Source: Desulfosporosinus acididurans (GTDB taxonomy: Bacteria; Bacillota; Desulfitobacteriia; Desulfitobacteriales; Desulfitobacteriaceae). Taken from it: a stretch of 32,803 nucleotides of DNA. Location of the stretch: contig NZ_LDZY01000021.1 of assembly GCF_001029285.1 (NCBI RefSeq), positions 1 through 32,803 of the forward strand. Reading direction: 5' to 3'. Below the pieces are notes generated by a model that saw only the letters and a list, made by a program, of their open reading frames with translations, was not told the origin of the DNA and did not search any database. The translations under genes and the position numbers were made by a program. Below, one piece after another: positions 4,093-32,185 of this stretch (position 1 is its first letter; the number at the start of each line of letters is the position of its first letter).

Positions 4093-4140
4093 AAAAAGCC
4101 CTGGAATCCTTGTTATAAGCGGATTTCAGGGCTTTTGTTT
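4093..4140 (+). terminator. Terminator of the tRNA operon
   Basis: AAGCCCTGGAATCC pairs with GGATTTCAGGGCTT (one G-T) around an 11-base loop and is followed by TTGTTTT. It lies 13 bases after the last tRNA. Confidence 0.88.
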
Positions 4141-5059
4141 TACAATCAAGAGGCTGTACATTACCTTTCTATACATATGTAAGAATCCAATAGTATCCGC
4201 ATGTATCAATAGGTCCGAAAGGCACAGGCAGACAAATAGGCAGACAACATTGAGACACGATTTTAGACCCTCTGTCGTTTTAAAAAACCTATCGTCTTTA
4301 GTATGTAATCGTCAGATATATATATATAACGGAGAAAAACGCAATCAGATGGAGATGTGTTGGAAAAATCGTCATAATTGAGGGCTTTTAGACGTAGATG
4401 GTTATTTTACGATTATATACGGCTAATGGAGTCGTCAGGCAACAAGGCACAATAAAACAATAGAGAATACAATAGGTTGATTCATCAAACTTAAATGAAT
4501 CTGTAATAATCTAAATTAAAACAAAAGATAAAAAGAAGAAAATAGATAGTAATAAAGATCGGTAGAATAAAACAAATAAGCTCATTAAAAAAAGTTGCTA
4601 GAGACCAAGTATGTAAAACTGCTAATTATAATTATGCAAAATACTCATTCACTTTAAAAAGATTGGGTATTTTTTGTTGTCCTTATAGGAAGGACACTTG
4701 CATCTACAGCCTTCTAACCGCCTTCTAAAGGAAGTTAAAGTGTGATAGTGGGCTGGAAACAGTAAAGATGATTTAACAGGCTCATAGGCATGAAATAATT
4801 TACCTGGCGCCTTTTAATTAATTCTCCAATACAACTTTTAAGGTATTTAACCCAATAGCTAATCCGTCCTAAAAGACTTTCCGGAGTGCTCAGAGGAAGG
4901 GGAAAGTACCAATCGTGCTTTCTGCATTTCGTAAACTCTTATCAAAAAATTAATTTACAAAAAGATAAAATTCAACTTGATTTTCGTGGGAATCAAATTT
5001 TATTGTATGTCTTAGGGAAACACGAATATATTTCCAAAACGAAAAGGAGTGATGTTGCC
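4141..5059. other. AT-rich non-coding stretch after the tRNA operon
   Basis: No supported gene here. Visible items: GGCAGACAA twice close together (about 4227-4246); several ATCGTC words at 4291-4372; and a 51-base segment at 4293-4343 that resembles a minus-strand segment at 27600-27651. A terminator-like hairpin, AAAATACTCA/TGGGTATTTT, ends in T6 at 4638-4674, and GTCCTT/AAGGAC makes a small hairpin near 4679-4695. The open frame upstream of 5060 lacks a credible start. This is the likely left margin of the accessory region. Confidence 0.4.
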
Positions 5060-5554
5060 ATGATAACAAAGCTAAAAGTCCTAAATAATGACAATCAAGT
5101 TATTGAGTATGCAGTTGAGAATGCAGAGGGGAAAGGGATTAAAAAAATTGAATATGCTGTCGATGACATTAATTTTGGCTATTTTATCGAGAATGAAGTA
5201 GGTGAATTAATATCCGTTTATTATGTTGTGACTTATCCTGTGATAGTAGTCGAATATAAGGTAAATTATATGCAAAGACCAGAATATGTAGAACACCCTG
5301 ACTGGCGTGTGGATTATTATGAGTCCTATCGGGAGATTAATATACCGAAACTTGACATAAGATATACAGTAGGTGGTTGTATTAATGGAAATAGAATCGA
5401 TAATATAAGGAGAAGCATTGACCAATATTTACTGGAAAATTATGAATGCTTTGATCGCTATGGGAACACCCTCGCTATAATTGAGATAGGGAATATGAAC
5501 GATGTTGAACTTAAAGAATTCGATAAAAATATGTGGGGATTGTATAAATACTGA
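5060..5554 (+). CDS. Hypothetical protein, 164 residues
   Basis: ATG 5060 is preceded by AAAGGAG about ten bases upstream. The 164-residue product (MITKLKVLNN...MWGLYKY) is acidic and rich in Ile, Val and Tyr, with alternating patterns that suggest beta structure. One stretch (ISVYYVVTYPVIVVEYKV) is quite hydrophobic but carries charged residues at its end, so a soluble beta-sheet fits as well as a membrane segment. There is no signal peptide and no recognisable motif. It stands alone between non-coding stretches. Base composition is like the AT-rich backbone and unlike the restriction operon. I do not recognise the family. Confidence 0.6.
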   Translation: MITKLKVLNNDNQVIEYAVENAEGKGIKKIEYAVDDINFGYFIENEVGELISVYYVVTYPVIVVEYKVNYMQRPEYVEHPDWRVDYYESYREINIPKLDIRYTVGGCINGNRIDNIRRSIDQYLLENYECFDRYGNTLAIIEIGNMNDVELKEFDKNMWGLYKY

Positions 5555-6436
5555 TATTTTCGAAGAATAGTATGATAGAGTATTGATTTGTTATTTTAAC
5601 CCTAAATCAAAAAGTGAACTAGCTCTATTAAGTAGACAGGAACAGTTCTCTCAGACTGAATTAGGAGTTATACATCCCCTCGGCATCGCCAAGAAAGCAC
5701 TCACCTATTGATACAATGTATAAACATAGAAAGCCCAGTTGCTGGGTTTTTCTGCATTTCTTAGGTAAAATAAGTATCGCCTAAGACGGTGCTTTAGTGT
5801 TTTCGACACACAATCGTTAAATGATGCACCCACCTTGAGGGTGAATCAGCCTTTCGTTAAAAGTATAGGTATCTTTAAAAGGTATTAGGAAACGATAGAA
5901 TATCTTATTGATATGTTTCAGTAAAGTTATCACGTTGAGACAGTCGTTGTTGATAACGAGGGTGGAACAGTAGGTGTACGGAAAAGGCTTAAAATAAGCC
6001 TTTTTTGTTTTTTTTTTGAATAAATTGGATTGCATAAAAGTGATTTTTGCTTCGTGGGAACATATCGAGACATGGCCTAAACCCAGTGACAGAGCGATTT
6101 AGATGTCAGTGGTTGGCGAGCGGTCGATTTAGATGTTATTTGAAAAAACCAAGATTGTGTGGTCGGATTGGATGTAAGATCTGAAATTGGCAGCCTTACA
6201 GCCGAAAATTGGGAATTTATTGTGGTGAAGATAGATTGTCGCAGAATTTACACAGGATATATTAGAGACAGTAGTCGGGTCTCCGCATACACAGGGCAAA
6301 TATGCGGTACTCTTCCGTCAAAGACCGTGTAAGGTTCTCCTGTATAGTGCTCGGTATTTATATTGTATATTCGGCGCTTGCAGGCGTACCTCGACATAAA
6401 GGACAACTATTAGAAAGGAAAAAGGAGGAGGTAAGT
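5555..6436. other. Intergenic stretch with terminators and a T-box-like segment
   Basis: No gene of good quality is seen. CCCAG/CTGGG followed by a T-run at 5732-5752 looks like a terminator for the gene ending at 5554. At 5924-5968 GTTATCA pairs with TGATAAC and is followed by GAGGGTGGAAC, resembling the stem III/T-box region of an aminoacyl-tRNA-sensing leader, then a terminator at 5982-6018. CGATTTAGATGT occurs at 6095 and 6125, with a diverged copy at 6164. CCGCATA/TATGCGG makes a perfect 7-bp hairpin at 6283-6307. Confidence 0.35.
5982..6018 (+). terminator. Intrinsic terminator
   Basis: AAAAGGCTT and AAGCCTTTT form a 9-bp stem around a five-base loop, followed by a very long T-rich tail to 6018. 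No gene ends just before it, so it may belong to a leader RNA upstream (see the T-box-like observation). Confidence 0.75.
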
Positions 6437-6544
6437 ATGAGAAGACAAAGCGGGCTAAGCATCTTATTCGACTTCATCATGACAATCTTGACAGGCGGTT
6501 TATGGCTTATCTGGGTGCTCGTTAGATATTTGAGGACGCACTGA
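6437..6544 (+). CDS. 35-residue single-span membrane peptide
   Basis: ATG 6437 follows AAGGAGGAGGTAAGT, a strong ribosome site, whereas longer in-frame starts have none. The product is 35 residues: a short basic N-terminus (MRRQSGLS), a hydrophobic core containing TGGLWLIWVLV and a basic end (RYLRTH). The positively charged flanks and single span suggest an inner-membrane peptide. I recall similar short proteins with a GGLWLIW core in Firmicute accessory DNA, but without an established function. A toxin, holin-like or regulatory role is speculation. It lies upstream of the EcsC-family gene with about 280 bases of debris between. Confidence 0.6.
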   Translation: MRRQSGLSILFDFIMTILTGGLWLIWVLVRYLRTH

Positions 6545-6823
6545 GAATGATTATGGTATATTTAAAGGAGAAACTTACCATGCCAAAAGAAATCACCGAC
6601 GCCTGAGCCCTTTTGCCTCCTAGATTGCAGTTTTATGCGGGCAAAGAAGAATGTAAGCTGGTTAACACTATGAACATAAGAAGGGAAATAATTCACGATG
6701 GAATGAGGAAATGTTAGTTATAGACGTTATGAGCGGTTTTTTGGGTGAACGTGGGAAAATGGCGAGAACTCCTTCGAAAAATTTACAGCCTGTACTATAG
6801 AACGCCTAAAGGGAGATGGCAAA
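6545..6823. other. Short gap with a truncated reading frame
   Basis: AAAGGAG followed by ATG at 6580 opens a frame of only eight codons (MPKEITDA, ending 6606). A good start signal on a dead-end frame suggests the 5' remnant of a deleted gene, or a leader peptide. Nothing else is recognisable before the GGGAG ribosome site of the gene at 6824. Confidence 0.35.
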
Positions 6824-7891
6824 ATGGATGAAATAAAACGGCCATATGCACCTGTTCCGATTATAGATGAAAAAGAGGCAGCTTTGCTCGATGCTTTAAC
6901 AGAACGTTATAATAAACTGATTAAACCAAGTAAAATTGCTCAAATAAGTACAAAAGCTGGGGAACTCATTCCCAAGAATATTAAATCCCTGGGAGCGGAG
7001 ATTGCTGCGAATATTTCCGCACAAGAGTTGTATCAACAAGCCATGGAGTTAATCACAACAGGATTCAAGGTAGTAGAGGAACAGGCGGCTAAATTTTCGA
7101 TAAGCGAAAAGACGATTTTGCAAAAGGTCAACACAGTTGTTTCAGATTATGAGATAATTGAATTAAGTGAAGTTTGCTTTGCGAGAAGCTATAGCCTAGC
7201 AAAGTTAGTCAATGCCTACAAGAGCCAAGATACCGTTGCAGCGCTTGTGGAAGGCGGAGCAACTGGAGCATTTGGTTTTTGGGGATTACCATTCAACATG
7301 GTGCTTAGTACTTTCCTGTATTTTCGTGCCGTGCAATCAATTGCAATGTTTTACGGATATGATGTTAAAAACGATGGTTCTGAATTAGTAATTGCAAGCG
7401 AAGTGTTTACAAATGCTTTATGCCCTGCACAAAACGATGTAAACAACGAAGTATCAAGTATCCTCGTAAAAATTATGCTGATGAGTAAAGCAGAGGTAGT
7501 TAAGCAGACAGCTAAGAAAACATGGTCTGATATGGCGGCACGGGGTGGGGTAACGCTGTTGTTAGCACAGATGAGAGCGCTGGCAAACAAATCTGCTCAG
7601 AAAGCTCTTGAAAAAGCAGGAGCGAAAGGATTGGAAAATAGTCTTTTCCGGGAAGCTTTTGAACAAATCGGTCGCAAGCTAACATTGAAGACTGCGGGTA
7701 AAGTAGTCCCGTATTTTTCGGCACTATTTGGAGCACTAATTGATGCGGCTCAAATGCAGAGAGTATTGAACTACGCAGATGTTTTCTACCACAAAAGATA
7801 TTTATTGGAAAAAGAAAACCGCATAAAAGCTATTGTTGCGAGTGATGCAATCATAATAGACGCAGAAATTGTAGGCGAAGAAGAACAATAA
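6824..7891 (+). CDS. EcsC family protein
   Basis: A 355-residue protein starting at ATG 6824 after AAGGGAGATGG. The central part (about 140-185) has a Gly-rich hydrophobic stretch, GGATGAFGFWGLPFNMV, then AVQSIAMFYGYDV, which is the characteristic core of the EcsC family: an amphipathic or hydrophobic segment followed by an I-A-x-x-Y-G-Y-D motif. The C-terminal third includes a second Ala/Gly-rich hydrophobic segment (about 290-315), and the acidic tail ends EEEQ. EcsC proteins are named from the Bacillus ecsABC cluster, but the biochemical role of this family is poorly defined. Here there is no ABC transporter next to it, and it is followed by a strong terminator, so it is transcribed on its own or with upstream sequence. 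Confidence 0.8.
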   Translation: MDEIKRPYAPVPIIDEKEAALLDALTERYNKLIKPSKIAQISTKAGELIPKNIKSLGAEIAANISAQELYQQAMELITTGFKVVEEQAAKFSISEKTILQKVNTVVSDYEIIELSEVCFARSYSLAKLVNAYKSQDTVAALVEGGATGAFGFWGLPFNMVLSTFLYFRAVQSIAMFYGYDVKNDGSELVIASEVFTNALCPAQNDVNNEVSSILVKIMLMSKAEVVKQTAKKTWSDMAARGGVTLLLAQMRALANKSAQKALEKAGAKGLENSLFREAFEQIGRKLTLKTAGKVVPYFSALFGALIDAAQMQRVLNYADVFYHKRYLLEKENRIKAIVASDAIIIDAEIVGEEEQ

Positions 7892-7896
7892 AAAAA

Positions 7897-7943
7897 GGGA
7901 GCAGGTCACCCTGTAGCTATTTCGCTCAGGGTGACTTGCTCTC
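7897..7943. terminator. Strong, probably bidirectional terminator
   Basis: GAGCAGGTCACCCTG (7899-7913) pairs with CAGGGTGACTTGCTC (7927-7941), a 15-bp stem with one G-T, flanked by an A-run on the left and T-rich sequence on the right. It separates the convergent EcsC gene and the minus-strand regulator remnant. Confidence 0.85.
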
Positions 7944-7951
7944 TTATTCGT

Positions 7952-8258
7952 TTATATCGACAAGGGCATGTTGAGGTTTTTGACCGGAACGAGTACAATC
8001 TGTTGTATTGTTTCGGTTTTACTGTCAACAACAGTATTGACGATAGGTGACACAGTGGGTAAAACAAAAAGCGTTTCTATTGTTTCGTTTGGGAACGCCC
8101 TCAATAGACCGCTCATCAGCTTCTTGCCGCCGCTGAGCTGCCCCTTCATAAACCAGTTGGGCTTCGGCACAGGATATGCCCATCTGCCTCGCCAGTTCGC
8201 TATCAGACCATCCGCGCTCGTTCACCAGTTTCGTAATGTAGCCCCTGTTAGGTGTCAT
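7952..8258 (-). pseudogene. Frameshifted XRE-type regulator
   Basis: Read from 8258 leftward, the first frame gives MTPNRGYITKLVNERGWSDS and continues ELARQMGISCAEA, a helix-turn-helix start. The second frame continues NWFMKGQLSGGKKLMSGLL and RAFPNETIETLFVLP to a stop at 7952. Together they make one plausible phage-repressor-like protein of about 100 residues (helices 2/3 at about 20-40, then the typical GGKKL-x-x-GLL-x-AFP). The join needs removal of one C from a CCC run (GGG at 8159-8161 on the plus strand). It diverges from the restriction operon and shares its control region, so the intact ancestor may have regulated both. It could be a sequencing error rather than true decay. Confidence 0.7.
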
Positions 8259-8413
8259 TAGTAAACACTCTTCAATATAGCGTAGACAATAGGGAACATG
8301 GATATTGTACCCAGTGCTGATCTTAATGTCAATATTAAAAAATATTGTATCCCTTGGGTTACATACATTGTCAAATCATAAGTAGACTCTTGAAAGCATT
8401 ATGCATAAATATG

Positions 8414-8442
8414 TTGCCAATAGGTTACACCTATACTATAAT
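8414..8442 (+). promoter_or_regulatory. Promoter of the restriction operon with an embedded operator
   Basis: TTGCCA (8414-8419) and TATAAT (8437-8442) are 17 bases apart. The spacer contains TAGGTTACACCTA (8421-8433), a palindrome TAGGT-TAC-ACCTA. A related word GGGTTACA lies at about 8354-8361, and its inverse TGTACCC near 8308. A repressor bound in the spacer would block polymerase, so autoregulation by the XRE protein encoded just downstream is the natural reading. Confidence 0.7.
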
Positions 8443-8462
8443 ACAAAATGGAGGTGTCAACC

Positions 8463-8867
8463 ATGGATTCTCTTGGCGAAACAATAAAGGACAGAAGGCT
8501 CGGTAAAGGCTGGTCAAAGCGGGCTTTGGCAGAGAAGGCCGGCATAAGCCATTCAGAAGTCCACCGCATTGAAACAGGCGAACGCACTAATCCGTCAGTA
8601 CCTGTTTTGAATGCGCTTGCGGAAGCCCTCGGCATTCCGAAGGATGACTTACTGCTCGCTGCGGGTTACAAGAGCGACGACGGCGACATCCCGATGATTG
8701 AGCGTGTTTTCCCCGACCTTAAAACAGAGAAGCAGCAGCAGACGGCCCAGAAGATAATTGACGGGCTGGCTCGTAGTAGCGATATGGACGACAGCGATTA
8801 CGACCGGCTGGTCGAGCAAATGGAGATGTTTTTTAACTATGTCAAGAAAAAGGACGATACCAAGTAA
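8463..8867 (+). CDS. XRE-family transcriptional repressor
   Basis: A 134-residue protein. ATG 8463 is chosen over an in-frame ATG at 8448 because GAGGTG (8451-8456) sits six bases upstream. Residues 1-65 form a Cro/C1 helix-turn-helix domain (IKDRRLGKGWSKRALAEKAG, then ISHSEVHRIETGERTNPSV, then LNALAEALGI). Residues 66-134 are acidic and probably helical (ERVFPDLKTEKQQQTAQKII), ending in a Lys-rich tail. It overlaps the ImmA/IrrE gene by 29 bases. XRE-ImmA pairs act as a repressor and the protease that inactivates it. Together with the operator-like palindrome in the promoter, this indicates control of the whole restriction operon. Confidence 0.88.
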   Translation: MDSLGETIKDRRLGKGWSKRALAEKAGISHSEVHRIETGERTNPSVPVLNALAEALGIPKDDLLLAAGYKSDDGDIPMIERVFPDLKTEKQQQTAQKIIDGLARSSDMDDSDYDRLVEQMEMFFNYVKKKDDTK

Positions 8868-9857
8868 ACCGCGTTTTGCGTTTGCGGTTAGACGTGCGTA
8901 TGAAGTTCTTGCTGAGATCGGGGCTACCACTCTCCCGATTGACCCGTTTCTAATTAGTGAGTATTACCCTGAAATCCACATCGTGTCTTATACAGAGCTG
9001 AAGGAGAACACTGCCTGTGCCGACCCTTTTAACTTCGATAGGCGGAATGCGCAGAACGCTTTCCTCGAGATTTGACGCGCAGAAGCAGCAGCGACCGTAT
9101 TGACGGAGAAACGCACAAGTACCGTGGCGATAAGGAATACCTCGTGGTCTATGACGATCGCATCGGCAACGAACGACGTATCCGCTGGACGATAGCTCAC
9201 GAACTCGGACACATCTTTCTTGGTCACTTCGTTGAGTTTACGCTAACATCATTCCTTCGAGGAGCAGGCGGCGAGGAGCGCGTTGGGTTGACGGATGAAG
9301 AATATGGGGTGCTTGAAGTAGAGGCACACTTCTTTGCGTCGGCTTTCCTGTCTCCATCGACAGTGATTCGGAAGATTGACGCCTGCGAGAGTGCTTTTGG
9401 CATCATGGAGATCTGCAATATTTCCGAGGACGCGGCATACAAGCGACTCGACGAACTAAAGCGACTGCCGTGTGGCAGTTACGAGGTCGAAGGTTTGCTG
9501 AGCCGCAACTTCTACAATTATATATGGAAGGCTAATAACCCGGACGCCGCTATGTTTAAGCCGCCGCTTGATTTTCTGCCCTCGCAGTACGAGGACTATG
9601 CTGACTATGAATATTGGGCATACATAGTGGCTTTATTAGGCAAGAGCATAAAGTACAAGGAACTGGGAATTGCCCTTGCCGATAGCATAACGATTTATGA
9701 GGAGGACGATATGCAGATAATCACACAGACAGAAACCGCTAAGGCTATGGCAGACAAACACAAGGAGGTCATCAAAACCGTCCTTAGCAAATATGGAAAG
9801 ACTCACATCCAGAGTGTGTCGGCGCTAAGTGCCGAGATACTCATACTGCTGAGTTAA
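8839..9857 (+). pseudogene. ImmA/IrrE-family metallopeptidase, split by a frameshift
   Basis: The first frame (8839-9075, 78 residues) has the N-terminal region of an ImmA-type protein (AYEVLAEIGATTLPIDPF, then DPFNFDRRNAQNAFLEI) and stops at TGA. The second frame (9072-9857) continues with KEYLVVYDDRI, the zinc site HELGHIFLGH and a downstream EAHFFASAFLSP that supplies the third ligand region, plus about 150 further residues. Adding one T to the TTT at 9071-9073 joins them as ...FLEI-L-TRRSSSD.... As written, the stop overlaps a TTG (TTGA), so re-initiation producing the catalytic part alone is possible. The family cleaves XRE-type repressors, and the upstream neighbour is its expected target. 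It ends 14 bases before hsdM. Confidence 0.8.
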
Positions 9858-9871
9858 AGGAGAACGATACA

Positions 9872-12439
9872 ATGGCAAAGCTAACTATTTCCCAACTCGA
9901 AAACCACCTGCTGAAAGCGGCGGACATTCTGCGCGGCAAGATGGATGCGTCCGAGTTCAAAGAATACATCTTCGGTATGCTGTTCCTAAAACGTCTGTCG
10001 GATAACTTCGCCGTGAAGAGGGCTGAACTCAAAGCAAATTTCGAGGCACGGGGTTGGTCGGCGGAACGTGTGGCGCGGGAACTTGAGGAACCCGCCAACT
10101 ACGGAAACGTGTTCTTTGTGCCGTGGGAGGCGCGCTGGACGTGCGAGGAACACGAACTTGGCACAGCGGCAAAGCCCGAAAAGTGGTCGGGCATCCTGCA
10201 CCTTAAAACGGAGGTTGCTTCCAAGCTTAAGCGCGCCCTTACGAAGATTGAAAAGAGCAACCCTACACTTGAGGGTGTGCTTTCAAATATAGATTTCGGC
10301 AAAAAAGTAAAATCCAAGCAGATAATCAACGACGCGAAGCTGATTAAGCTAGTAGGCCACTTCAACAAATATCGTCTGACAAATGAGGACTTCGTATTCC
10401 CCGACCTATTAGGCGCGGCATACGAATACATGATTAAAAACTTCGCCGACAGCGCGGGTAAAAAGGGCGGAGAATTCTATACCCCCTCTCCGGTGGTGCA
10501 ACTCATGGTGCGCCTGATTAAACCGGTGGCGGGTAATCGCGTTTATGACCCGACGGTTGGCTCCGGTGGTATGCTGATTCACAGCAAGCAGTATGTCGAG
10601 GAAAACGGCGGCCGAGCCGACGACTTATCGCTATTCGGGCAGGACGACGCGGCTTCCGTGTGGTCTATCTGCAAGATGAATATGATAATGCACGACATAA
10701 AGGATCCGGATATTCAACACGGTGACACAATAGGTGAGCCGCATTGGACGGACGAAAAAGACCCGTCCCTTACGCGCCAGTTCGACCGCGTCATCGCAAA
10801 TCCGCCGTTCTCGCAGAACTACTCCCAAGCGGGAATGAAACTGCCGAATCGTTTCCAGTACGGCTTCGCGCCCGAAACGGGCAAAAAAGCCGACCTGATG
10901 TTCGTGGAACACATGATAGCGTCCACCAAAGACGACGGAGTAATGATAACGGTTATGCCTCACGGCGTACTATTCCGTGGTGGCTCGGAACAGCGTATCC
11001 GCAAAGGAATCCTGACTGACAAGCAAGATATTGTGCAGGCGGTCATTGGTTTGCCGCCGAATCTTTTCTACGGCACGAGCATTACGGCGTGTCTGCTTGT
11101 GATAAACAAAAAGAAGCCAAAGCAACTGGAGGGCAGCGTCTTCATCATAAACGCCGATGCTGAGTACGGCGAAGGACGCAATCAGAACTATCTTCGCCCG
11201 GAGGACATTGAGAAGATTGTCTACGTCTTTGACAACTTTCTCGAAGTGCCGGGCTATTCCCGCGTTGTGCCGATAAGCGAAATCACCGACGAGAACGGCA
11301 ACGACTGCAACCTGAACATTCGCCGCTATGTTGATAATACCCCGCCCGCTGAACCACACGATGTGAAGGCGCACCTTTTTGGCGGTGTTCCAAGTGCGGA
11401 AATAACTGCCCTGAACGGTCTGGTCACTAAGTACGGCATCGCCGAAAGCGATCTCTTCAACGACCGTGGAGACGGCTACGCTGACTTTGTTCACGCCGAC
11501 AAAGTCGCTATTAAGGAAGCCATACAATCGAACGCGGGCGTGACCGCCGCCAACAGTAAAGTTACCGAAGCCGCTAACAGCTGGTGGGTGAAGGCCGCCG
11601 CCGAAATCTCACAAATTGGCAAGACGGTGCAGGTATACGAATTCAAGCGGAAGTACACCGAACAACTGCGTGAGATGCTTGAACCACTCGGTGTGTTGGA
11701 CAGATTCCAATGCATCGGTGTGTTCGCCAACTGGTGGGAACACAGCTATACCGTGCGGGAATCTACTGAAATCGAGTCGGACGGCGACAGTAACACTAAG
11801 GTGACCGTCAAAGAGGTCATCTCCGTCAAGAATGTGTTTAAGACCATCACCGCGGAGGGTTTTGTCGCTGCGCTTGTTTCCGACGAGAAAATAGCCAAGG
11901 AACACTTTGCCGCCGAATTGGATGGCCTTAAAGTTTTGGAGCGCGATGCGGAGAACGCCGCCGCCGAACTGCAAAGCTACGCTGAGAGCATCGACATGGG
12001 TGAGGGCGACGACGATTCCGAGGGCGAGGAGGCAGACGAAGCCAAGGATGTCAAGGTTTCGGACGTTGAAAAATACCTAAAGACTCTGGGGACAGAGGAA
12101 GCGAAGGCATCCCTCAAGAAAATAAAGGACTTGAAGTCCGAGAAGAGCAAGGCAAACAAAGCTCTGAAAAAAGCGCAGACTGAACTGCAGGAGAAAATAG
12201 ACGCCATCCGTAAGGAACTGACCGCCGATCAATGTGAAATACTCGTGATGGAACTTCTACGGGAGGGGTTTGTTGCCGAGCTGGATAAATACTTGAAAGC
12301 CGAGCTCGACAAGACGGTCAAAGCCGTGCATCACCTCTGGGAGAAGTACGCTAAATCAGCGGAACAGCTAACCGACACACGCGCCGCCGCCGAGGATAAG
12401 CTGGACGGCTTTTTAAGGGAGTTGGGATACTATGGGTGA
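9872..12439 (+). CDS. hsdM: Type I restriction-modification DNA methyltransferase subunit M
   Basis: An 855-residue protein with AAAGGAG just upstream of ATG 9872. Residues 1-150 match the HsdM N-terminal helical domain (LRGKMDASEFKEYIFGMLFL). The N6-adenine methylase domain follows, with the S-adenosylmethionine-binding motif DPTVGSGGML at about 229 and the catalytic NPPF at about 310. It modifies adenine in the site chosen by HsdS. At 855 residues it is longer than the roughly 500 residues of classical HsdM. Residues beyond about 500 hold an acidic segment (EGDDDSEGEEADEAKD) and a Lys/Glu-rich coiled coil (about 735-800), as in the long clostridial subclass. It overlaps hsdS by eight bases, indicating translational coupling. 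Confidence 0.96.
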   Translation: MAKLTISQLENHLLKAADILRGKMDASEFKEYIFGMLFLKRLSDNFAVKRAELKANFEARGWSAERVARELEEPANYGNVFFVPWEARWTCEEHELGTAAKPEKWSGILHLKTEVASKLKRALTKIEKSNPTLEGVLSNIDFGKKVKSKQIINDAKLIKLVGHFNKYRLTNEDFVFPDLLGAAYEYMIKNFADSAGKKGGEFYTPSPVVQLMVRLIKPVAGNRVYDPTVGSGGMLIHSKQYVEENGGRADDLSLFGQDDAASVWSICKMNMIMHDIKDPDIQHGDTIGEPHWTDEKDPSLTRQFDRVIANPPFSQNYSQAGMKLPNRFQYGFAPETGKKADLMFVEHMIASTKDDGVMITVMPHGVLFRGGSEQRIRKGILTDKQDIVQAVIGLPPNLFYGTSITACLLVINKKKPKQLEGSVFIINADAEYGEGRNQNYLRPEDIEKIVYVFDNFLEVPGYSRVVPISEITDENGNDCNLNIRRYVDNTPPAEPHDVKAHLFGGVPSAEITALNGLVTKYGIAESDLFNDRGDGYADFVHADKVAIKEAIQSNAGVTAANSKVTEAANSWWVKAAAEISQIGKTVQVYEFKRKYTEQLREMLEPLGVLDRFQCIGVFANWWEHSYTVRESTEIESDGDSNTKVTVKEVISVKNVFKTITAEGFVAALVSDEKIAKEHFAAELDGLKVLERDAENAAAELQSYAESIDMGEGDDDSEGEEADEAKDVKVSDVEKYLKTLGTEEAKASLKKIKDLKSEKSKANKALKKAQTELQEKIDAIRKELTADQCEILVMELLREGFVAELDKYLKAELDKTVKAVHHLWEKYAKSAEQLTDTRAAAEDKLDGFLRELGYYG

Positions 12440-17307: not shown

Positions 17308-19038
17308 ATGGCACAGCATCTTTCTATTCGTATTCCATGGAAAGACAACGGCTACAGCGGACTGGTATGTGACAAGCCTTGCTACAACAATGCTTGCCTG
17401 CGGTTAAGAAACATTTCTGACAACAAGGATGACGAATTTGAGGAAACTCTCAAAGGGAGCCCTATTGCTGGTCATGAGCACGAAATACCTTGCGTGTCTG
17501 AGGGCGGCGTTTTCATGTCTGCAAAGCAACATTCGAGGATTAACATACACCCGTATAAGGAGTCTAATCCAGCTACACACGGACATTTTCGGGAAACGGA
17601 GTTGCTATATCCACCTTACTCTTTACCCGCCAGACCATTCGCTTGGACAATGCTCCGCAAAGGAAATGACCGAGAAGATCAGAATATTCGCCGACTTGCG
17701 GACAGATATAATATCGACTATGACCCTGCGAGAGAACCGGAGTTGTCGTTTACAACAAATTGGATACAGGATTCAGTAAACCAACGGGCAATTTTTAAGA
17801 CATTTTATGAAGACGTGACCCCGAACCAATCTTTGGTGATTGCATATGCGAAGCAAGTCCCCTTTATTGATGATTCAAAGCGAGTAGTTATGGGCATCGG
17901 TTTTGTGAAGTCAGTAACCAAACCGCCTGAACATAAGCATACAAATGACGGAACACTGCGCTCCATCCTCTGGGAAACAATGATCGGTCATTCTATTCGC
18001 AACGTCCGTAAGGATGGTTTCTTGCTTCCGTATGGGGATATGATGAAATACGCCGAAACACACCCTGATTTTGACATTAGATCAGTAACCGTCTTCGCTG
18101 AGGATGAATACTTCGATGAGTTCTCCTATGCTACTGAACATCTTTCGTATGATGCCGTCATCAGTGTTCTGCTTCAGACACTTAAAGCTTTGGAGATAAT
18201 TAAGGAATGCATACCTGGCAACTGGCAAGATTGCATTGACTGGACGAATCAACGGCTTATGGAAGTATGGCAAGACCGCGGCTCCTTTCCAGGGTTGGGA
18301 TCAATGCTATGCGCTGTCGGTTTCAAGTTCGGCATTGTGCTTGCAAATGAGATTAAAAGGATAATAAACAATAGTGTAGCGTTTGAGGAATATGTCGCTC
18401 AGGTATTGCAAAGTCCGGAAAATTACTTTAGTGCTGATATCGCCAATTCGATTGGCAGAACAGAACAGGGTTCTTTTTTCGCTCTCTCCGGTGATCGTAA
18501 ATCGCTATTCTGGCTTCTTTCTCGCCTGTCTTTGAGTGTTGAGCAAGCTAATGCCCTGTTTAACACCGAATACAGGCAAAAGGCGAAGATTGACTGTTCG
18601 GACAAAGAAATCATCGAGAACCCATATTTACTATATGAACGGACAAGGATGTGCGCCGACGAGTTGAAAATGGCCGTTCGCAAAGTTGATATGGCGGTAT
18701 TCCCACCTAAAGAACTGCGTGATTTGTATCCTCTTGCCGCTCCGACGGCACTCGACTCGGAAAACGATGAACGCCGAATCAGAGCAATCGCTATCAGTGT
18801 ATTGGAAAATCAGGCTGAGAGCGGACATACCGTGTATCCTCAAAACAAACTCATCATTGACATTAACGAGCTGCCCATAGAGCCGGGGTGTCTGGTTTCG
18901 AGCGATATTTTCAAAAGTATACAGGGTTTTCTTTCGGAAGAGCTTATGCCTGTGGAGTGTGCCGATGGAACCATTGCTTATCAGCTAAGCCGTCTTGCCC
19001 AGATTGACGATATTATTCGTAGGTCTGTAAACAAGTGA
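17308..19038 (+). CDS. N-terminal part of a helicase-nuclease protein, cut by an in-frame TGA
   Basis: A 576-residue frame starting at ATG 17308 after an ACGGAGG ribosome site. The region 1-550 has no recognised domain. It includes a Cys/His-containing start (CDKPCYNNAC), an aromatic middle section and a helical C-terminal part rich in Leu. TGA at 19036-19038 ends it after IIRRSVNK, but the same frame stays open straight into the ATPase of the next entry for 49 codons without any ATG, GTG or TTG. The natural reading is one protein of about 1,233 codons with a nonsense change; CGA (Arg) to TGA would need one substitution. As written, the product lacks its motor and nuclease. Confidence 0.75.
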   Translation: MAQHLSIRIPWKDNGYSGLVCDKPCYNNACLRLRNISDNKDDEFEETLKGSPIAGHEHEIPCVSEGGVFMSAKQHSRINIHPYKESNPATHGHFRETELLYPPYSLPARPFAWTMLRKGNDREDQNIRRLADRYNIDYDPAREPELSFTTNWIQDSVNQRAIFKTFYEDVTPNQSLVIAYAKQVPFIDDSKRVVMGIGFVKSVTKPPEHKHTNDGTLRSILWETMIGHSIRNVRKDGFLLPYGDMMKYAETHPDFDIRSVTVFAEDEYFDEFSYATEHLSYDAVISVLLQTLKALEIIKECIPGNWQDCIDWTNQRLMEVWQDRGSFPGLGSMLCAVGFKFGIVLANEIKRIINNSVAFEEYVAQVLQSPENYFSADIANSIGRTEQGSFFALSGDRKSLFWLLSRLSLSVEQANALFNTEYRQKAKIDCSDKEIIENPYLLYERTRMCADELKMAVRKVDMAVFPPKELRDLYPLAAPTALDSENDERRIRAIAISVLENQAESGHTVYPQNKLIIDINELPIEPGCLVSSDIFKSIQGFLSEELMPVECADGTIAYQLSRLAQIDDIIRRSVNK

Positions 19039-19185: not shown

Positions 19186-21009
19186 GTGCTTGTCGGCGGA
19201 GCCGGTACAGGCAAAACGACGTTGCTGTCGTTATTGTGTAAATCACCGCAAATTCGTGATGGTGGCGTACTTTTGCTTGCCCCTACCGGAAAAGCAAGGG
19301 TTCGAATGAGTCAAGCCATGCAGCGGCAGGGCGTTTCAAGCAACGCCAAGACTGTCGCGCAGTTTCTAATCCAGAACGGTAGATTCGACTACAATACGAT
19401 GCGCTATCAGTTATCGGACGCAGAAGTAAAGGACGTGCCATTTACCGTTATTGTTGATGAATGCTCTATGCTTACTGAAGAGATGTTCGGTGCGTTAATG
19501 CAGGCTCTGCGTAAGGCACAGCGTATCATTTTCGTCGGTGACCCCAACCAACTGCCGCCCATTGGCGCGGGCAGACCATTTGTTGACCTTGTTCGATACT
19601 TGAAAATGGATATTCCGTTGTTCCCGCGAGTAGGAAAAAGCTATGGCGAACTAATCGTCACCCGTCGTCAAAAAAATACAGACGGCAAAGAGCGTACTGA
19701 CACTGCACTCGCTGAATGGTATGCTGACACTACCGCCGAACTTGACGATGAGATATTCGTACGGCTACAAGGTAATAACTGCGGTAAAAATGTCACTTTC
19801 AAGATGTGGTCTACGCCGGAGGAACTTGAAAGCTTGGTCTTGCAGACTGTGGCCGAAGAGGTCGGCATGAAAAGTGTTGACGACGTTAATGGGTTTAACA
19901 TCAGTCTTGGCGGGACTGTCGGTCAGTATACTTATTTCAACCTCGGTTGTGCTGACAAATCTGAGAGTTGGCAAGTCTTGGCTCCAATACGAGGTTTGCC
20001 ATACGGCGTCGCAAACATCAACCACATCATCCATAGCAAATATCGTGAGAACTATCTTGAGTTGGCGAAGGAATCGTATTTCTGGAATAGAAAAATACCA
20101 AGACCTATTGGCGCAGAAGGCATTGTTTATGGAGATAAGGTCATCAATGTTATAAACACCAAGCGCAAAGCCTATCCAGACAACGCGGGTTCTATTCATT
20201 ACGTCGCTAATGGCGAAATAGGTGTCGCATTTTCAAATTGGGTAAAGAAAGACGACAGTGCTAAAGTCCGCAGTATGAAACTTGGTGGGTTAAAGGTCGA
20301 ATTTTCCTCACAGAAAGGGTACTCTTACCAATACGAAGGTAGGGATTTTGGTGAAGAGACTGACGCTGTCCTTGAACTTGCTTACGCTCTCACTGTCCAT
20401 AAGGCGCAGGGCAGCGAGTTTGGTAAGGTCATTCTGGTGATAAACGAACCGTGTGGTTTGCTCTCAAAGGAACTGCTCTATACTGCAATTACGCGGCAAA
20501 CCGATCGGCTTGTTATTCTTTACAACGCCGAGGCGTATCACCTGCGAAATTACTCATCGAGAGCGTTTTCCGACATCGCCAGACGTTTTACTTGCCTGTT
20601 TGAGAAACCCGAAATCGTTAAATTCAAGCAGCGATATTATGAAGCTTCGCTTATACATAAAACTCTTAAGGGTGAACTTGTGCGTTCAAAATCCGAGGTG
20701 ATTATAGCTAATATGCTCTATGAAGCGGGAATTCCTTATGAATACGAAAAGGAACTATCCCTCGGCGAGGACGGCACACGAATCCCTGATTTCACAATCG
20801 ACGATGCTGAAAGCGGTATGCTCTATTACTGGGAACACTGCGGCATGATGTCGGACAGGCACTACCGCCAGCGGTGGGAAGAAAAGAAAGCAGTATACGC
20901 CAAACACGACATCATTGAGGGAGAAAACCTGATTGTGTCTTACGATGACATGAACGGTAGCATTGACTCCGTGGCGATAAAGGCTCTTATTGAGAAATAT
21001 CTGCAGTAA
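19186..21009 (+). CDS. RecD-like SF1 helicase with C-terminal PD-(D/E)xK nuclease (continuation after the TGA)
   Basis: The frame is open from 19039; the first standard start codon is GTG 19186, inside the strand leading into the P-loop, so independent initiation would damage the fold. Motifs in order: VGGAGTGKTTLL (Walker A), VDECSML (Walker B), VGDPNQLPPIGAG (motif III), LTVHKAQGSEF (motif V) and LLYTAITRQTDRLVI (motif VI), which is an SF1B RecD-like set. The last 130 residues read LVRSKSEVIIANMLYEAGIP, then RIPDFTI, YYWEHCGM and EKKAVY. This has a predicted endonuclease-like pattern (Asp in PDF, Glu in WEH, a following Lys). With the preceding gene it forms a DNA helicase-nuclease attached to the type I operon. 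Whether full-length protein is made depends on the TGA. Confidence 0.82.
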   Translation: MLVGGAGTGKTTLLSLLCKSPQIRDGGVLLLAPTGKARVRMSQAMQRQGVSSNAKTVAQFLIQNGRFDYNTMRYQLSDAEVKDVPFTVIVDECSMLTEEMFGALMQALRKAQRIIFVGDPNQLPPIGAGRPFVDLVRYLKMDIPLFPRVGKSYGELIVTRRQKNTDGKERTDTALAEWYADTTAELDDEIFVRLQGNNCGKNVTFKMWSTPEELESLVLQTVAEEVGMKSVDDVNGFNISLGGTVGQYTYFNLGCADKSESWQVLAPIRGLPYGVANINHIIHSKYRENYLELAKESYFWNRKIPRPIGAEGIVYGDKVINVINTKRKAYPDNAGSIHYVANGEIGVAFSNWVKKDDSAKVRSMKLGGLKVEFSSQKGYSYQYEGRDFGEETDAVLELAYALTVHKAQGSEFGKVILVINEPCGLLSKELLYTAITRQTDRLVILYNAEAYHLRNYSSRAFSDIARRFTCLFEKPEIVKFKQRYYEASLIHKTLKGELVRSKSEVIIANMLYEAGIPYEYEKELSLGEDGTRIPDFTIDDAESGMLYYWEHCGMMSDRHYRQRWEEKKAVYAKHDIIEGENLIVSYDDMNGSIDSVAIKALIEKYLQ

Positions 21010-26179: not shown

Positions 26180-26206
26180 TTTAAGCACTCAATGATAACA
26201 GACAAT

Positions 26207-26354
26207 ATCGACTTGTTTCCGAGAACTGATAGAAGCCGCAATAATATTGTGGACATGTTTCCGCGCACGGAAAATTCCTATTAAAGCCACTATCGACTTA
26301 TTCCCGCGAACGGAGAAAAGGTGTAAAACGCCGTCGACTTATTTCCTTATACGA
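26207..26354 (+). repeat. Four degenerate tandem copies of an (I/V)DLFPRT-coding repeat
   Basis: ATCGACTTGTTTCCGAGAAC (26207), GTGGACATGTTTCCGCGCAC (26249), ATCGACTTATTCCCGCGAAC (26292) and GTCGACTTATTTCCTTATAC (26333) are spaced 42, 43 and 41 bases apart. Each would read (I/V)D(L/M)FP(R/Y)T. Copies 1, 2 and 4 share a frame; copy 3 is one base out. A 28-codon frame, 26192-26278, covers the first two but lacks a clear ribosome site. The motif resembles the VDMFP-x-T near the end of RlmCD/RumA-type rRNA methyltransferases. Confidence 0.65.
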
Positions 26355-28552: not shown

Positions 28553-28712
28553 TTGTTTTTCTTAACAAATGGCTTTAATGTTGCCAAGATAGCAACGGCA
28601 CAATAACATAAAAGTGTCATTGTCAATCCTTCAACTGATATCAACTAAGCTACAAAAATATTTACATTCCCTAGTTTTTAAAAAATACTTGAAAACTCTA
28701 ATAAACTTATTT

Positions 28713-28763
28713 AATAATCAGCCATGAAGTCAATACTTGGTATCGACTTCATGGCTGATTATT
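28713..28763. repeat. 51-base near-perfect palindrome
   Basis: AATAATCAGCCATGAAGTC (28713-28731) is the exact reverse complement of 28745-28763. Inside, ATAC/GTAT adds four more pairs after one mismatch, leaving a three-base TTG loop. It lacks a G+C-rich stem with a long T-run, so it is unlike an ordinary terminator. It lies about 280 bases upstream of the Rep-helicase gene and could be an element end, an origin hairpin or a protein-binding site. Confidence 0.75.
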
Positions 28764-28813
28764 ATTTACACCTATTTTGGGTTAATAATAAGAATTACTC
28801 CTTTACATAGCGG

Positions 28814-28850
28814 AAGAGCAAGGGCACTTGTAGTGATAGCCCTTGCTCTT
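28814..28850 (+). repeat. 12-bp hairpin upstream of the Rep-helicase gene
   Basis: AAGAGCAAGGGC (28814-28825) pairs exactly with GCCCTTGCTCTT (28839-28850) around a 13-base loop. ATTACTCCT before it and AGGAGTTACT after it partly extend the pairing. No T-run follows, so a structural or origin role is as likely as termination. Confidence 0.65.
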
Positions 28851-28967
28851 AATATAGGAGTTACTTTGTTATTAAATAGATTCTACCAATTCATTTTTTT
28901 GAATGTCAAATATTGTTTAGAGTCTGCTCCTGATGCTATGAAAATCAGCAAAAGGAGTGATGCCGTT

Positions 28968-29066
28968 ATGAGAAAGGCAAATGCACGTAACTTGATTACA
29001 TTACTTATTCCTGATGTCGCACACATCCAAAAGGAGTGTGAGACATATGGAAAAGAAATGCTTTGA
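28968..29066 (+). CDS. Possible 32-residue leader ORF overlapping the Rep-helicase start
   Basis: ATG 28968 follows AAAGGAGTGATGCCGTT, a good ribosome site. The 32-residue frame (MRKANARNLITLLIPDVAHI then QKECETYGKEML) stops 20 bases inside the downstream Rep-helicase gene, whose own ribosome site (AAAAGGAGTG) lies within this frame. Translation of the leader would therefore affect access to the replication gene's start, a common way to limit Rep expression. No protein family is recognised. It may instead be fortuitous. Confidence 0.45.
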   Translation: MRKANARNLITLLIPDVAHIQKECETYGKEML

Positions 29067-31770
29067 ATCGGTGAGAATACTAAAAAACCAGGTTAGTGGC
29101 AAGTTCTATGCCAAGGCGGTGACCTGTGGACTACTTGTCTGTGATCATTGTCGAGAACAAATAAAGGCAACGTTGGTAACCAAAATATTAAGGGCGGTTA
29201 ATTTGTATGACTTGAATCAATTTTTTACATTAACTACTGATAAATCGTACGACGACCTGGTTGCCGATTTTGAGTGCCTCAGGAAGAAACTTCACAGCAT
29301 AAAGAAATCGAATTATATAAAGAAATCAAGAGGTAGCACTTACAAGGAGCGAGAAGCAAAATATTATGCCAAGGTCGACCAGATGGTTTGCTATGAAATA
29401 AAGACAATGTTCTATGTCGCCTTTCTTGAAGAGGAAGCTGTTAGCATAGCAAAAAAAGAGGGTGTTGAATATAGATTTTTAAATACCGTTAGAAATAAAA
29501 CCAAGTATAAAAGCAAGGTAGATTTTATAAGGCAGCACTATGAACTTATAGTTGATCGGATAATAACAAGAGTTGATGATTTCAAACGAGGAAGTCTAAT
29601 GAAATTTACTCCAGTTATTAAAGATGAACCAAGAGTATTTACAACTTATGAAGAACTCTATAAATACTGTTGGGCTAAAATTACAAAAAATGACGATCAG
29701 GATTTTTACTTTATAAGAATTTTAGAAATAGCAGGGAAGCCCCATTTCCATATTCTCTGTAATAGGTACATTAATCATTATTTAATGTCTGAAATGTTTA
29801 GTGGAGTAGAGAAAAGGAGTCGTCGGGAAATAGAAGTATCCCAAAAGATTTATCTGAATCTCGATTTACAGGAGTTTTCAGATTTTACGACGGAGATACA
29901 GGCACAAAAAGCCGTTACTCAATACGTGACATTATATGTCACGAAGGAATTAGCCGATAGTGTAAACAAGTTTAAAGAATCATATCCTGGAAAAAAACGA
30001 ATTGATATAGTGAAGTCAAATAAAAGCATAGATACTGCTCTCAATACCAAATTCGTGGAAGATGAGGACGAAGAAAAAGAGAAATATATATATATTGAAA
30101 CTTATGAAAATAAGAAACCCCGATGCAGTTGGGAAGAAATAGAAGGGTCTAATGGCTATGATGGCAATAAGAAATACATCGAACTCCTGAAAGATATAAA
30201 AGATTATATTAAAAACCCGTATAGCATTTATATTGAACAAAACTATAAGGATTACCAAAATAAAATAATTCAACTCGGTAAGGAGTACAAAGTAAAGAAA
30301 GAAAAAGCAAAAGCTGAAGAGAAGCCAAAACTCTTACAGATGTTTAAGGATAAAAAATATGATTTAAAAAATATTTTTAGACAAGAAAAAAATCGTATAG
30401 AAACCGCTTGCCTAAAAGATGCGTTAGAATCAAAACTTGGAGAAGGAAGTATATCAATTAAAGTATATGACCAATATCTTATAGAACTCGAACTCAACTT
30501 GAGAAATAGGGCTGACTTTTCCTTAGAGGAGAAGCGGGATTATTTAAATGTTCAGAGGAATTTTGTGAGAGATATAGAAGATCCAGAGAAGAAGATAGTA
30601 TTTCTCTTGGGTAGTGCGGGCAGTGGTAAGACACAAACTATCGCTAACATTTGCAATAATTTTGTGCAGCAATATAAAATGGAGTTCTGTGCATTTTCTG
30701 CGAAAGCGGCTGATGTGTTATCTAGAAAAGGATTGAAAGCTAAAACCATACATCGCCTTTGTAGGGCAAGGTTTTCGGAAATAACCTATTTTTTGGCTGA
30801 TAAGAACAACACATTAGATGTGGATATCCTGTTTATTGATGAGATCAGTATGGTTACAAAATATGACTTTGCACTTTTATTAAATGCTCTAAAGCCAACA
30901 ACAAAGATTATTTGTTGCGGTGATAGTAATCAAATAAATCCCGTCGGGAGCAATAACCTAATCTATGAATTGGAACTTATTAAGAATAAGGCTGTTTCTT
31001 TTAATCACTTGCATTTAAATTTTCGATCAAGTGAAGGCGTTGCGATTATTGCAAATCAAGTGCTTCATAATGATTTTTCAGGCTTGGAATTCAAGTCGTT
31101 CAATATTGGAGACATACACAAGAAAATCGAATGTGGTTATAAAGTCCTCACCAATTCGACACATTTGATGGAATTGATTAATAAGTATGAGAGCCAATTC
31201 CACACTGAAATTATGGATACTTCTTTTTACACCTATAGCCCTGGACAAGACATAATGATTCTACGCAATGATCCAAAGAATGATGTTTATAACGGAAATA
31301 TATGCAAGATTAAGGGGGTTATAGAGCGGGAAGTGATTCAAGAAAAGAAAGAGATATCGGAAGTGGAATATGAAAGAGAGCCAACTCTATCTGAATTTTT
31401 TTCAGGGGTTGAAACTACTGTAAAAGAGAAGCATCAAGTTGTAAAAAAACGTACTGATGTAAAAATGGTACGAAAGCTTTGCATTGAGAAACCGAGCGGG
31501 GAAACCTTTGAATATTCTTTAGTGAAGAGTGCCAATTATTTTCAACCTGCTTTTGCTTTTACGATTCACAAAAGTCAAGGATCCGAGTTTCCTAAAGTTC
31601 TGATCGTTTTTGAGAACAAGGAAAAACTGCTGAATAATAATTTGCTCTACACTGCCATTACGCGAGCTAAAAGTAGCTTTGATATCTATGTTACTGATGG
31701 AGTAAATATAGAGGCTCTAAAGATAAAACAGGAAAACGAAGATAAATATACACTTTTAGATATTGTTTAA
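29047..31770 (+). CDS. Rolling-circle HUH Rep endonuclease fused to an SF1 helicase
   Basis: A 907-residue protein. ATG 29047 is chosen because AAAAGGAGTG lies about nine bases upstream. The N-terminus has a Cys cluster (Cys27, Cys32, Cys35; CGLLVCDHCR), as in some Rep proteins. KPHFHILCN places an HUH metal site at His233/His235. It is followed by AVTQYVTLYVTKEL with Tyr293 and Tyr297, a Y-x3-Y catalytic pair as in phiX174 gpA and IS91. A charged linker (about 335-500) leads to an SF1B helicase: GSAGSGKT (522-529), FIDEISMV (Asp598-Glu599), CGDSNQINPVG, TIHKSQGSEF and LLYTAITRAK. HUH before Tyr is the Rep order, unlike MobF relaxases. It should nick and unwind DNA for rolling-circle replication or transposition. 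The layout resembles Helitron RepHel. The gene is flanked by palindromes. Confidence 0.8.
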   Translation: MEKKCFESVRILKNQVSGKFYAKAVTCGLLVCDHCREQIKATLVTKILRAVNLYDLNQFFTLTTDKSYDDLVADFECLRKKLHSIKKSNYIKKSRGSTYKEREAKYYAKVDQMVCYEIKTMFYVAFLEEEAVSIAKKEGVEYRFLNTVRNKTKYKSKVDFIRQHYELIVDRIITRVDDFKRGSLMKFTPVIKDEPRVFTTYEELYKYCWAKITKNDDQDFYFIRILEIAGKPHFHILCNRYINHYLMSEMFSGVEKRSRREIEVSQKIYLNLDLQEFSDFTTEIQAQKAVTQYVTLYVTKELADSVNKFKESYPGKKRIDIVKSNKSIDTALNTKFVEDEDEEKEKYIYIETYENKKPRCSWEEIEGSNGYDGNKKYIELLKDIKDYIKNPYSIYIEQNYKDYQNKIIQLGKEYKVKKEKAKAEEKPKLLQMFKDKKYDLKNIFRQEKNRIETACLKDALESKLGEGSISIKVYDQYLIELELNLRNRADFSLEEKRDYLNVQRNFVRDIEDPEKKIVFLLGSAGSGKTQTIANICNNFVQQYKMEFCAFSAKAADVLSRKGLKAKTIHRLCRARFSEITYFLADKNNTLDVDILFIDEISMVTKYDFALLLNALKPTTKIICCGDSNQINPVGSNNLIYELELIKNKAVSFNHLHLNFRSSEGVAIIANQVLHNDFSGLEFKSFNIGDIHKKIECGYKVLTNSTHLMELINKYESQFHTEIMDTSFYTYSPGQDIMILRNDPKNDVYNGNICKIKGVIEREVIQEKKEISEVEYEREPTLSEFFSGVETTVKEKHQVVKKRTDVKMVRKLCIEKPSGETFEYSLVKSANYFQPAFAFTIHKSQGSEFPKVLIVFENKEKLLNNNLLYTAITRAKSSFDIYVTDGVNIEALKIKQENEDKYTLLDIV

Positions 31771-31786: not shown

Positions 31787-31834
31787 AATTAACCCAGCTA
31801 TGTTTTGCCTTATGCAAAACTAGCTGAGTTAATT
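31787..31834. repeat. Long imperfect hairpin after the Rep-helicase gene
   Basis: AATTAAC-x-CAGCTA then GTTTTGC pairs with GCAAAAC, TAGCTG and GTTAATT around CTTAT, giving about 20 bp with one bulge and one mismatch. It starts 16 bases after the stop. It may terminate transcription (TTTCATTT follows) or be the 3' hairpin of a rolling-circle element. Confidence 0.7.
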
Positions 31835-32008: not shown

Positions 32009-32152
32009 ATGGTTAGTGAAACAGTTGGAGTTATTGACACACAAAAAGAATGGCAGAGTAAAAGGGATGATCTTGACATTCAGTTATGTGATTTAATAAT
32101 GGAATATAAAAAGGATCTTCAAACAGAAAATAATTGCTCAACGATAAGATAA
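32009..32152 (+). CDS. Small hypothetical protein, 47 residues
   Basis: ATG 32009 has a modest ribosome site (TAGGAAA). The 47-residue product begins MVSETVGVIDTQKEWQSKRD and is acidic and mostly helical, with no Cys-pair or membrane segment. Its stop codon lies inside the left arm of a strong hairpin terminator, as often seen for compact genes. No family is recognised. It lies between the Rep-helicase gene and the IS21 remnant, about 240 bases after the former. Confidence 0.45.
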   Translation: MVSETVGVIDTQKEWQSKRDDLDIQLCDLIMEYKKDLQTENNCSTIR

Positions 32153-32185
32153 AACAGCACTGATGTACTGTTTTATCTTAGAAAA
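32146..32185 (+). terminator. Perfect 12-bp hairpin, likely terminator
   Basis: AAGATAAAACAG (32146-32157) pairs exactly with CTGTTTTATCTT (32168-32179) around a ten-base loop. It includes the stop codon of the 47-residue frame. The stem is A+T-rich and no T-run follows, so its efficiency as a terminator is uncertain. Confidence 0.65.

Follow-up and report, generated by a model that had tools for sequence, protein, structure and literature searches.

Does the bacterium Desulfosporosinus acididurans carry a Helitron? The question is raised by one gene on contig NZ_LDZY01000021.1 (assembly GCF_001029285.1), whose positions 1 to 32,803, read on the forward strand, form the window, the whole stretch of DNA analysed here. 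The gene encodes a protein (hereafter RepHel) that joins a rolling-circle nickase of the HUH class to a superfamily 1B (SF1B) helicase. The original prediction, made from the letters of the DNA, took this pairing as the hallmark of eukaryotic Helitrons and proposed a bacterial rolling-circle transposon or replicon of a little-described type. We consider it likely that the protein is a two-tyrosine rolling-circle initiator, of the type found in inoviruses, microviruses and small plasmids, which is fused to its own RecD2-like SF1B helicase, and whose gene probably comes from an integrated replicon. The one relative found over its full length is probably the replication gene of a small plasmid, so the protein appears to be a plasmid initiator of a little-described kind and not a bacterial Helitron.

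A single chain holds two intact sets of motifs, one of a rolling-circle nickase and one of an SF1B helicase. The open frame enclosing the gene, 29014 to 31770, is uninterrupted, and the ATG at 29047 is the likely, predicted start codon. Cys27, Cys32 and Cys35, His233 and His235, and Tyr293 and Tyr297 lie where the original prediction placed them, and the helicase that follows is complete, with Walker A at residue 522, IDEIS at 597, HKSQG at 841 and YTAITRAK at 868. The HUH motif (233/235) precedes the tyrosines (293/297), which is the order of Rep proteins. The motif taken by itself counts for little: in 294 of 20,000 shuffled versions of the N-terminal 345 residues, an HxH has a YxxxY 30 to 95 amino acids behind it. 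It is homology to relatives that makes the HUH assignment convincing.

Relatives are few. A tblastn search of 72,556 plasmids matched 116 records, and a single one, pA38H1, matched at least 80% of the window protein at one place. pA38H1 (NZ_MN657153) is a circular plasmid of 6,116 bp from Sporosarcina sp. ANT_H38; the paper on the host strain gives its size as 6,234 bp and mentions plasmid replication genes only in general terms (PMC11919988). Its RepHel of 784 amino acids, annotated as 'AAA family ATPase', is 26.3% identical to the window protein at 97% coverage (E 2e-36). The N-terminal 433 residues alone retrieve pA38H1 at 2e-10 and no second plasmid at E ≤ 1. Common to both proteins are C27, C32, C35, F59, T61, T63, H233, H235, Y293, Y297 and K300. 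The plasmid has six annotated genes, none named as a resistance or virulence gene, and is typed as non-mobilizable. We infer that RepHel is its candidate replication initiator, because none of the five other annotated proteins matches a replication family of Pfam or NCBIfam at E ≤ 0.01. Another plasmid, pGR7 (NC_010177, L022), has the helicase half only, with 57% identity to the pA38H1 protein over 57% of its length. The pGR7 record, labelled Acetobacter, starts at its sole EcoRI site, the junction between the helicase half and another small protein, and its nearest relative is a Sporosarcina plasmid. Because the record opens at this single site, pGR7 may be an incomplete EcoRI clone.

The nuclease half resembles phage and plasmid Reps. 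In pA38H1 it passes the model PF23343 REP_ORF2-G2P (30.6 bits, cut-off 27.8; whole protein 28.4) and matches phrog_3419, 'rolling circle DNA replication initiation', at 1.2e-7. Compared by hhalign with nine Reps (phage, plasmid and one chromosomal), which had been chosen as weak RepHel matches or through the RepHel profile, the two N-termini together reached a probability of 97.3 and E 2.8e-11; as controls, 20 column shuffles all gave E 0.12 or worse and the linker gave 0.73. The window protein alone reached 6.4e-6 against the same nine. A profile alignment with 67 viral Reps gave E 1.3e-7 for the pair and 1.7e-5 for the window protein alone, which scored 39.7 where 100 shuffles reached 21.5 at most. 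These 67 are what a length and HxH filter left of 76 viral Rep loci. A MAFFT alignment with 39 of the loci has invariant columns at window residues E227, G230, H233, H235, Y293, Y297 and K300. Since the loci had been fetched by patterns including HxH or YxxxY, the invariance of those columns is partly selected; what is unselected is that the window protein's own residues land in the same HxH and tyrosine columns as those of the viral Reps. For motif I, FxTLT was found in eight of ten Reps, and hhalign sets window residues 27-85 against microvirus Reps (2.7e-6), favouring FFTLT at 59-63; CxxCxxC lies ahead of this motif in two of the three microvirus Reps looked at. Among 50,697 phage records, the N-terminal 433 residues gave two chance-level matches, one in an inovirus (E 0.4) and one in a microvirus (E 0.1), both to a 'replication initiator protein'.

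The helicase half classifies by its matches as an SF1B helicase of RecD/RecD2-like and not of Pif1- or Helitron-like type. It matches the RecD2 family TIGR01448 with E 1.6e-49 and 168.7 bits, below the equivalog cut-off of 500, and RecD structures rank first for it in the PDB. Helraiser, a Helitron transposase, was matched at E 0.14 with the single sequence. With a two-sequence profile, the values were 1.4e-23 for RecD, 1.3e-8 for the best chain named PIF1 and 0.0078 for Helraiser. The PIF1 family of Pfam matches the window protein at 0.0096 and 16 bits, under its cut-off of 25.9; the pA38H1 helicase passes it (35.2 bits), yet matches RecD2 far better (9.3e-64). A tree of 37 helicase cores, built without L002 because it duplicates L026, places the window protein in one clade with pA38H1 and pGR7 (support 97/88; 96% of 200 bootstrap trees). 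Because the helicase halves group in this tree, the simplest reading is that the nuclease-helicase fusion arose once and was inherited by the window protein and the pA38H1 RepHel. The profile alignments to Reps and the RecD2 match bear out the claim of the original prediction that an HUH nuclease and an SF1B helicase occur together in one bacterial chain.

If the protein is such an initiator, the N-terminal HUH domain would bind an origin, with one of the upstream hairpins as its probable site, nick one strand there and stay linked to its 5' end by Tyr293 or Tyr297. Unwinding of the duplex would fall to the helicase, which should run 5'-3' as other SF1B enzymes do and would move on the displaced strand, with host polymerase extending the 3' end meanwhile. 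After one round, the second tyrosine would cut and rejoin, so that a single-stranded circle would be released. Small Gram-positive rolling-circle plasmids borrow the host helicase PcrA/UvrD; a RepHel replicon would do without it. We give an even chance to the wider proposal that RepHels mark a separate bacterial lineage of two-tyrosine replicons, whose Rep brings its own 5'-3' RecD-type helicase and has no need of PcrA/UvrD; such a lineage would be the first 'RepHel' among prokaryotes, its fusion having arisen independently and with RecD in place of Pif1. Direct shared ancestry with Helitrons is disfavoured by the RecD type of the helicase.

Several observations weigh against an initiator of this kind. 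The window N-terminus matches PF23343 at residues 212-301 with only 18.3 bits (E 0.0028), under the cut-off of 27.8, and has no match of known function among the PHROGs. In hhalign, the window protein alone reaches a probability of 53.8 (E 1.3e-4) against five plasmid and inovirus Reps and of 6.7 (E 0.0054) against three microvirus Reps. Because the protein by itself is this weak, the Rep assignment leans on pA38H1 and on the larger profiles. Motif I is placed at about residues 168-174 by MAFFT and by the AlphaFold model, and one alignment of pA38H1 also takes the later stretch and not FFTLT. The tyrosines of pA38H1 are spaced Y-x6-Y, unlike the Y-x3-Y of the window. That pA38H1 replicates by its RepHel is something we infer, and its locus tags jump by one number, so that a gene near 4641-5540 is perhaps absent from the table. 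Its leader has no strong hairpin comparable to that of the window (z +1.25), and a comparison of the two for nick-site words of phiX and pC194 type and for shared non-coding words gave nothing convincing. The branch of the window protein in the helicase tree is long (2.45). Finally, the gene lies in the chromosome, with no extrachromosomal form known.

The HUH fold was also examined by structure prediction, the check proposed along with the original prediction. From the single sequence, AlphaFold gave a predicted local distance difference test score (pLDDT) of 35. With a Rep alignment, the mean rose to 62.7 and the predicted template modelling score was 0.53, for a model that borrows Rep sequences; pLDDT is 77-85 at residues 191-260 and 281-300 and 54-66 between. 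The order of the model is strand, helix, strand, strand (HUH), helix, strand, helix (Tyr). Foldseek found no match to it at E ≤ 0.001. Among the best 50 PDB rows, ranks 1-32 are all chains of adeno-associated virus Rep, and among the best 50 viral rows eight are named, seven of them as replication proteins. In VIA-align, the top 15 of the best 50 rows are HUH nucleases with modest Z scores of 4.9-6.9, some of which we take to be such from their titles; every Z is below 8, and families outside those 50 rows are not excluded by the comparison. These structural neighbours support the predicted HUH fold but do not prove it, given Z scores under 8 and a model built with borrowed Rep sequences.

Table 1. 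Features of the RepHel gene and its flanking DNA, in window coordinates.
Feature	Position	Strand	Basis or remark
Palindrome, 25-nt arms 96% complementary, DNA fold -21.1 kcal/mol, z -10.5	28712..28764		candidate origin or terminator
Hairpin, 12-nt perfect arms, 13-nt loop, z -4.9	28814..28850		putative double-strand origin
Promoter-like TTGACA-18-TAGAAT with TG, 11/12, antisense in the rep leader	28880..28909	-	
AAGGAG, likely ribosome-binding site, 10-nt spacer to ATG	29031..29036	+	sequence
RepHel gene, intact, 907 amino acids	29047..31770	+	open reading frame and relatives
Cysteine cluster C27-x4-C32-x2-C35	29125..29151	+	kept in pA38H1 RepHel
Candidate Rep motif I, FFTLT, residues 59-63	29221..29235	+	placement differs between alignments
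HUH motif HFH, residues 233-235	29743..29751	+	sequence, alignments
Y293-x3-Y297, then V-T-K300; candidate nicking tyrosines	29923..29937	+	sequence, alignments
RecD2-like SF1B helicase, about residues 505-900	30559..31746	+	family and structure-chain matches
Hairpin directly behind the stop codon, without a run of T; z -7.5	31787..31834	+	probable end structure of the gene
Palindrome, 16-nt arms, z -4.6, no CTRR after it	32145..32180		
Truncated IS21-type element (IstB), cut at the contig end	32216..32803	-	outside the Rep element

The window is chromosomal, with 23S and 5S rRNA genes and seven tRNA genes within 1-4080. When 1-9900 was searched against 29 genomes of the genus, with ten candidates scored per genome, all matches listed except the window itself ended at or before 4141. 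The stretch beyond about 4141 looks like an island beside the tRNA cluster. It holds type I restriction-modification genes, a homologue of PDC-S68 and then the A+T-rich stretch bearing RepHel. The G+C content is 34% in the RepHel gene, 33% and 27% in its flanks and 33% in pA38H1; it is 36-52% in the other stretches of the window, including 51% in the restriction-modification genes and 45% in the PDC-S68 region. The single-copy RepHel gene in this island probably stems from an integrated plasmid or plasmid-like element. Two further features of the island are noted. The homologue of PDC-S68, a candidate defence protein, is split over two open reading frames in the same frame, 17308-19038 and 19186-21009, as an interrupted gene or an assembly error. 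At 26198-26340, downstream of a gene of 1627 amino acids, four degenerate units of about 42 nt (e.g. TCGACTTATTCCCG) each read I/V-D-L/M-F-P in some frame. Five other genomes of the family have DNA matching this repeat stretch, and one of the matches (G036:C33, 11480-11770) lies directly after a RecD-like gene.

Palindromes lie on both sides of the gene, as had been claimed, and nothing marks them as the ends of an element. The two upstream hairpins and the antisense site would fit an origin with a copy-control leader. The antisense site was noticed after the fact, and 41 of 1000 shuffles hold a promoter-like site of 11 of 12 matches, five of them with TG; as a source of a copy-control RNA it is speculative. 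The RepHel gene occurs once in its own genome (17 of 17 candidates scored). A 6.9-kb query found there itself, two matches to its own palindromes and otherwise only the IS21-type element, of which there are two more copies, 99% identical (40 of 48 first-look candidates scored). In a partial search of 45 genomes of the family, with six candidates scored per genome, the same query met no long relative; what matched were copies of IS21, one short repeat and fragments some 30-60 nt long, among them one of 29 nt inside the RepHel gene. Empty insertion sites did not show up in this partial search, which was not aimed at them. Because only six candidates were scored in each genome, the search leaves room for dispersed ends.

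Three other explanations have to be weighed. If RepHel were the transposase of a bacterial Helitron or other rolling-circle transposon, the palindromes on both sides of the gene would be its ends. The domain order, nuclease and then SF1B helicase, is that of the Helitron RepHel, two tyrosines are present, and the location is chromosomal. However, the gene is single-copy, the partial searches of its own and the 45 family genomes gave no dispersed long copies besides IS21, and the helicase is RecD-like and not Pif1-like. In addition, no Helitron or IS91 family is matched at E ≤ 5, and the closest relative sits on a plasmid. The Helitron-type CTRR was not seen by eye after either right-hand hairpin, these hairpins being at most candidate ends. 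We regard a transposon as very unlikely; the kinship with Helitrons in the original prediction is not supported, and of its two options the replicon is plausible and indeed little described.

A relaxase that nicks an origin of transfer and unwinds DNA to mobilise an integrative element, as TraI or TraA would, deserves attention, since in TraI-type relaxases, too, an HUH domain with two tyrosines is linked to a helicase resembling RecD, and the window protein has a weak similarity to TraA (TIGR02768, 4e-17). The best TraA stretch, residues 492-634, lies within the helicase, whereas the nuclease half matches no relaxase family at E ≤ 5, and HUH before Tyr is the reverse of the relaxase order. 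On this point the original prediction was correct. In addition, pA38H1 is typed as non-mobilizable. No coupling or type IV secretion family was found in the ten window proteins scanned, four of which matched nothing. A relaxase is a very unlikely explanation in our judgement. Alternatively, RepHel might have been domesticated, or might serve in defence, as part of the island of defence genes around it, and no longer act as an initiator. The upstream genes, type I restriction-modification subunits and the PDC-S68 homologue, invite this view, as do scores on the RecD-like models of PADLOC (4.1e-34), yet the PADLOC stretches listed fall in the helicase and neither domain has lost its motifs. The N-terminus is found in no other of the 82 class genomes searched, which is unlike a host gene that has become fixed, and its gene resembles pA38H1 in G+C content and not its defence neighbours. 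This explanation seems to us most improbable, and we keep to a plasmid-type initiator with its own helicase.

The fusion of Rep and helicase is rare within the searched genomes, plasmids and viral loci. The N-terminal profile matched three of 398 genomes of the phylum, namely its own and two with stand-alone Reps (G431 and G160); in the 82 class genomes, which overlap with the 398, it gave its own match and one chance match. These two stand-alone proteins, each with a PF23343 HUH domain, measure 483 and 474 amino acids (L030, 700-2151, and L031, 979-2403); the HUH domain of L030, the stand-alone Rep of G431, matches PF23343 at 8.6e-13 and Helitron_like_N weakly at 0.018. PF23343 itself occurs at 20 places in 18 of the 398 genomes, in open frames of 105-507 amino acids, and the 76 viral Rep frames all measure at most 613 amino acids within the loci examined; no fused helicase was seen in either set. 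This model misses the window protein, so further fusions may go undetected by it. Searches of genome contigs and viral contigs for related loci found no further RepHel. A DNA pattern for the HUH motif had no match, and one for helicase motif VI met two loci, one a complete RecD-like frame without HxH (by eye), the other cut at the locus end. Two long RecD-like proteins from related genomes (L026 and L027, 908 and 918 amino acids) were rejected as RepHels, the N-terminal profile giving no match, and so was a match in G024 (L032, E 3.7e-4), whose frame is antisense to an unrelated gene.

The gap left by helicase-less prokaryotic Reps is filled by a bacterial two-tyrosine Rep with an SF1B helicase, met here in one chromosome and on one small plasmid. 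With it one can ask by experiment whether a Rep that travels 5'-3' along the displaced strand by its own motor makes the 3'-5' helicase of the host dispensable, and the small plasmid pA38H1 lends itself to such a trial. If the wider proposal of a separate lineage is true, bacterial plasmids also evolved the architecture of Helitrons, through an independent fusion with RecD instead of Pif1. A 2022 proposal, which did not come up in our literature search, reportedly derives Helitrons from a prokaryotic RepHel plasmid. At the level of titles and the starts of abstracts, with most subscription papers and preprints outside coverage, that search found no bacterial Rep-SF1 fusion. Heringer and Kuhn (2018) describe the known prokaryotic two-tyrosine Reps as all lacking a helicase (PMC6213432). 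A word search of the text of a paper on archaeal Reps does not return 'helicase' (PMC13107129).

How does RepHel compare with known systems? The nuclease-helicase Reps of bacteria described by Kazlauskas et al. (2019) carry superfamily 3 helicases (PMC6668415); these pCRESS plasmid Reps are likewise bacterial and found on integrated plasmids, whereas here the helicase is SF1B and there are two tyrosines. IS91 and ISCR elements have a Y2 transposase without a helicase; their family is unmatched (E ≤ 5) by the window protein, which has one. The MobF relaxases TraI, TrwC and TraA share an HUH nuclease and a RecD-like helicase with it. In them the tyrosines precede the HUH motif; here they follow it, and no relaxase family is matched. 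The PF23343 Reps of inoviruses, microviruses and small plasmids (e.g. Rep5 of pGTG5) have E-x-x-G-x-x-H-x-H and Y-x3-Y..K in the same order, as well as the cysteines in the microvirus Reps already mentioned, and differ in that no fused helicase was seen in them. The pA38H1 RepHel agrees over its full length, with the Cys cluster, HUH motif, two tyrosines and RecD2-like helicase, and differs in being shorter, 26% identical, spaced Y-x6-Y and encoded on a 6.1-kb plasmid instead of a chromosome. With the Helitron RepHel, the window protein shares an HUH two-tyrosine nuclease followed by an SF1B helicase, a nickase joined to its motor in one chain. The helicase there is of Pif1 type and here of RecD type, PF14214 Helitron_like_N is unmatched at E ≤ 5 by the N-terminus of either the window protein or pA38H1, and several genome copies would be expected of a Helitron, where there is one. 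The window protein is an analogue of the Helitrons, not a member.

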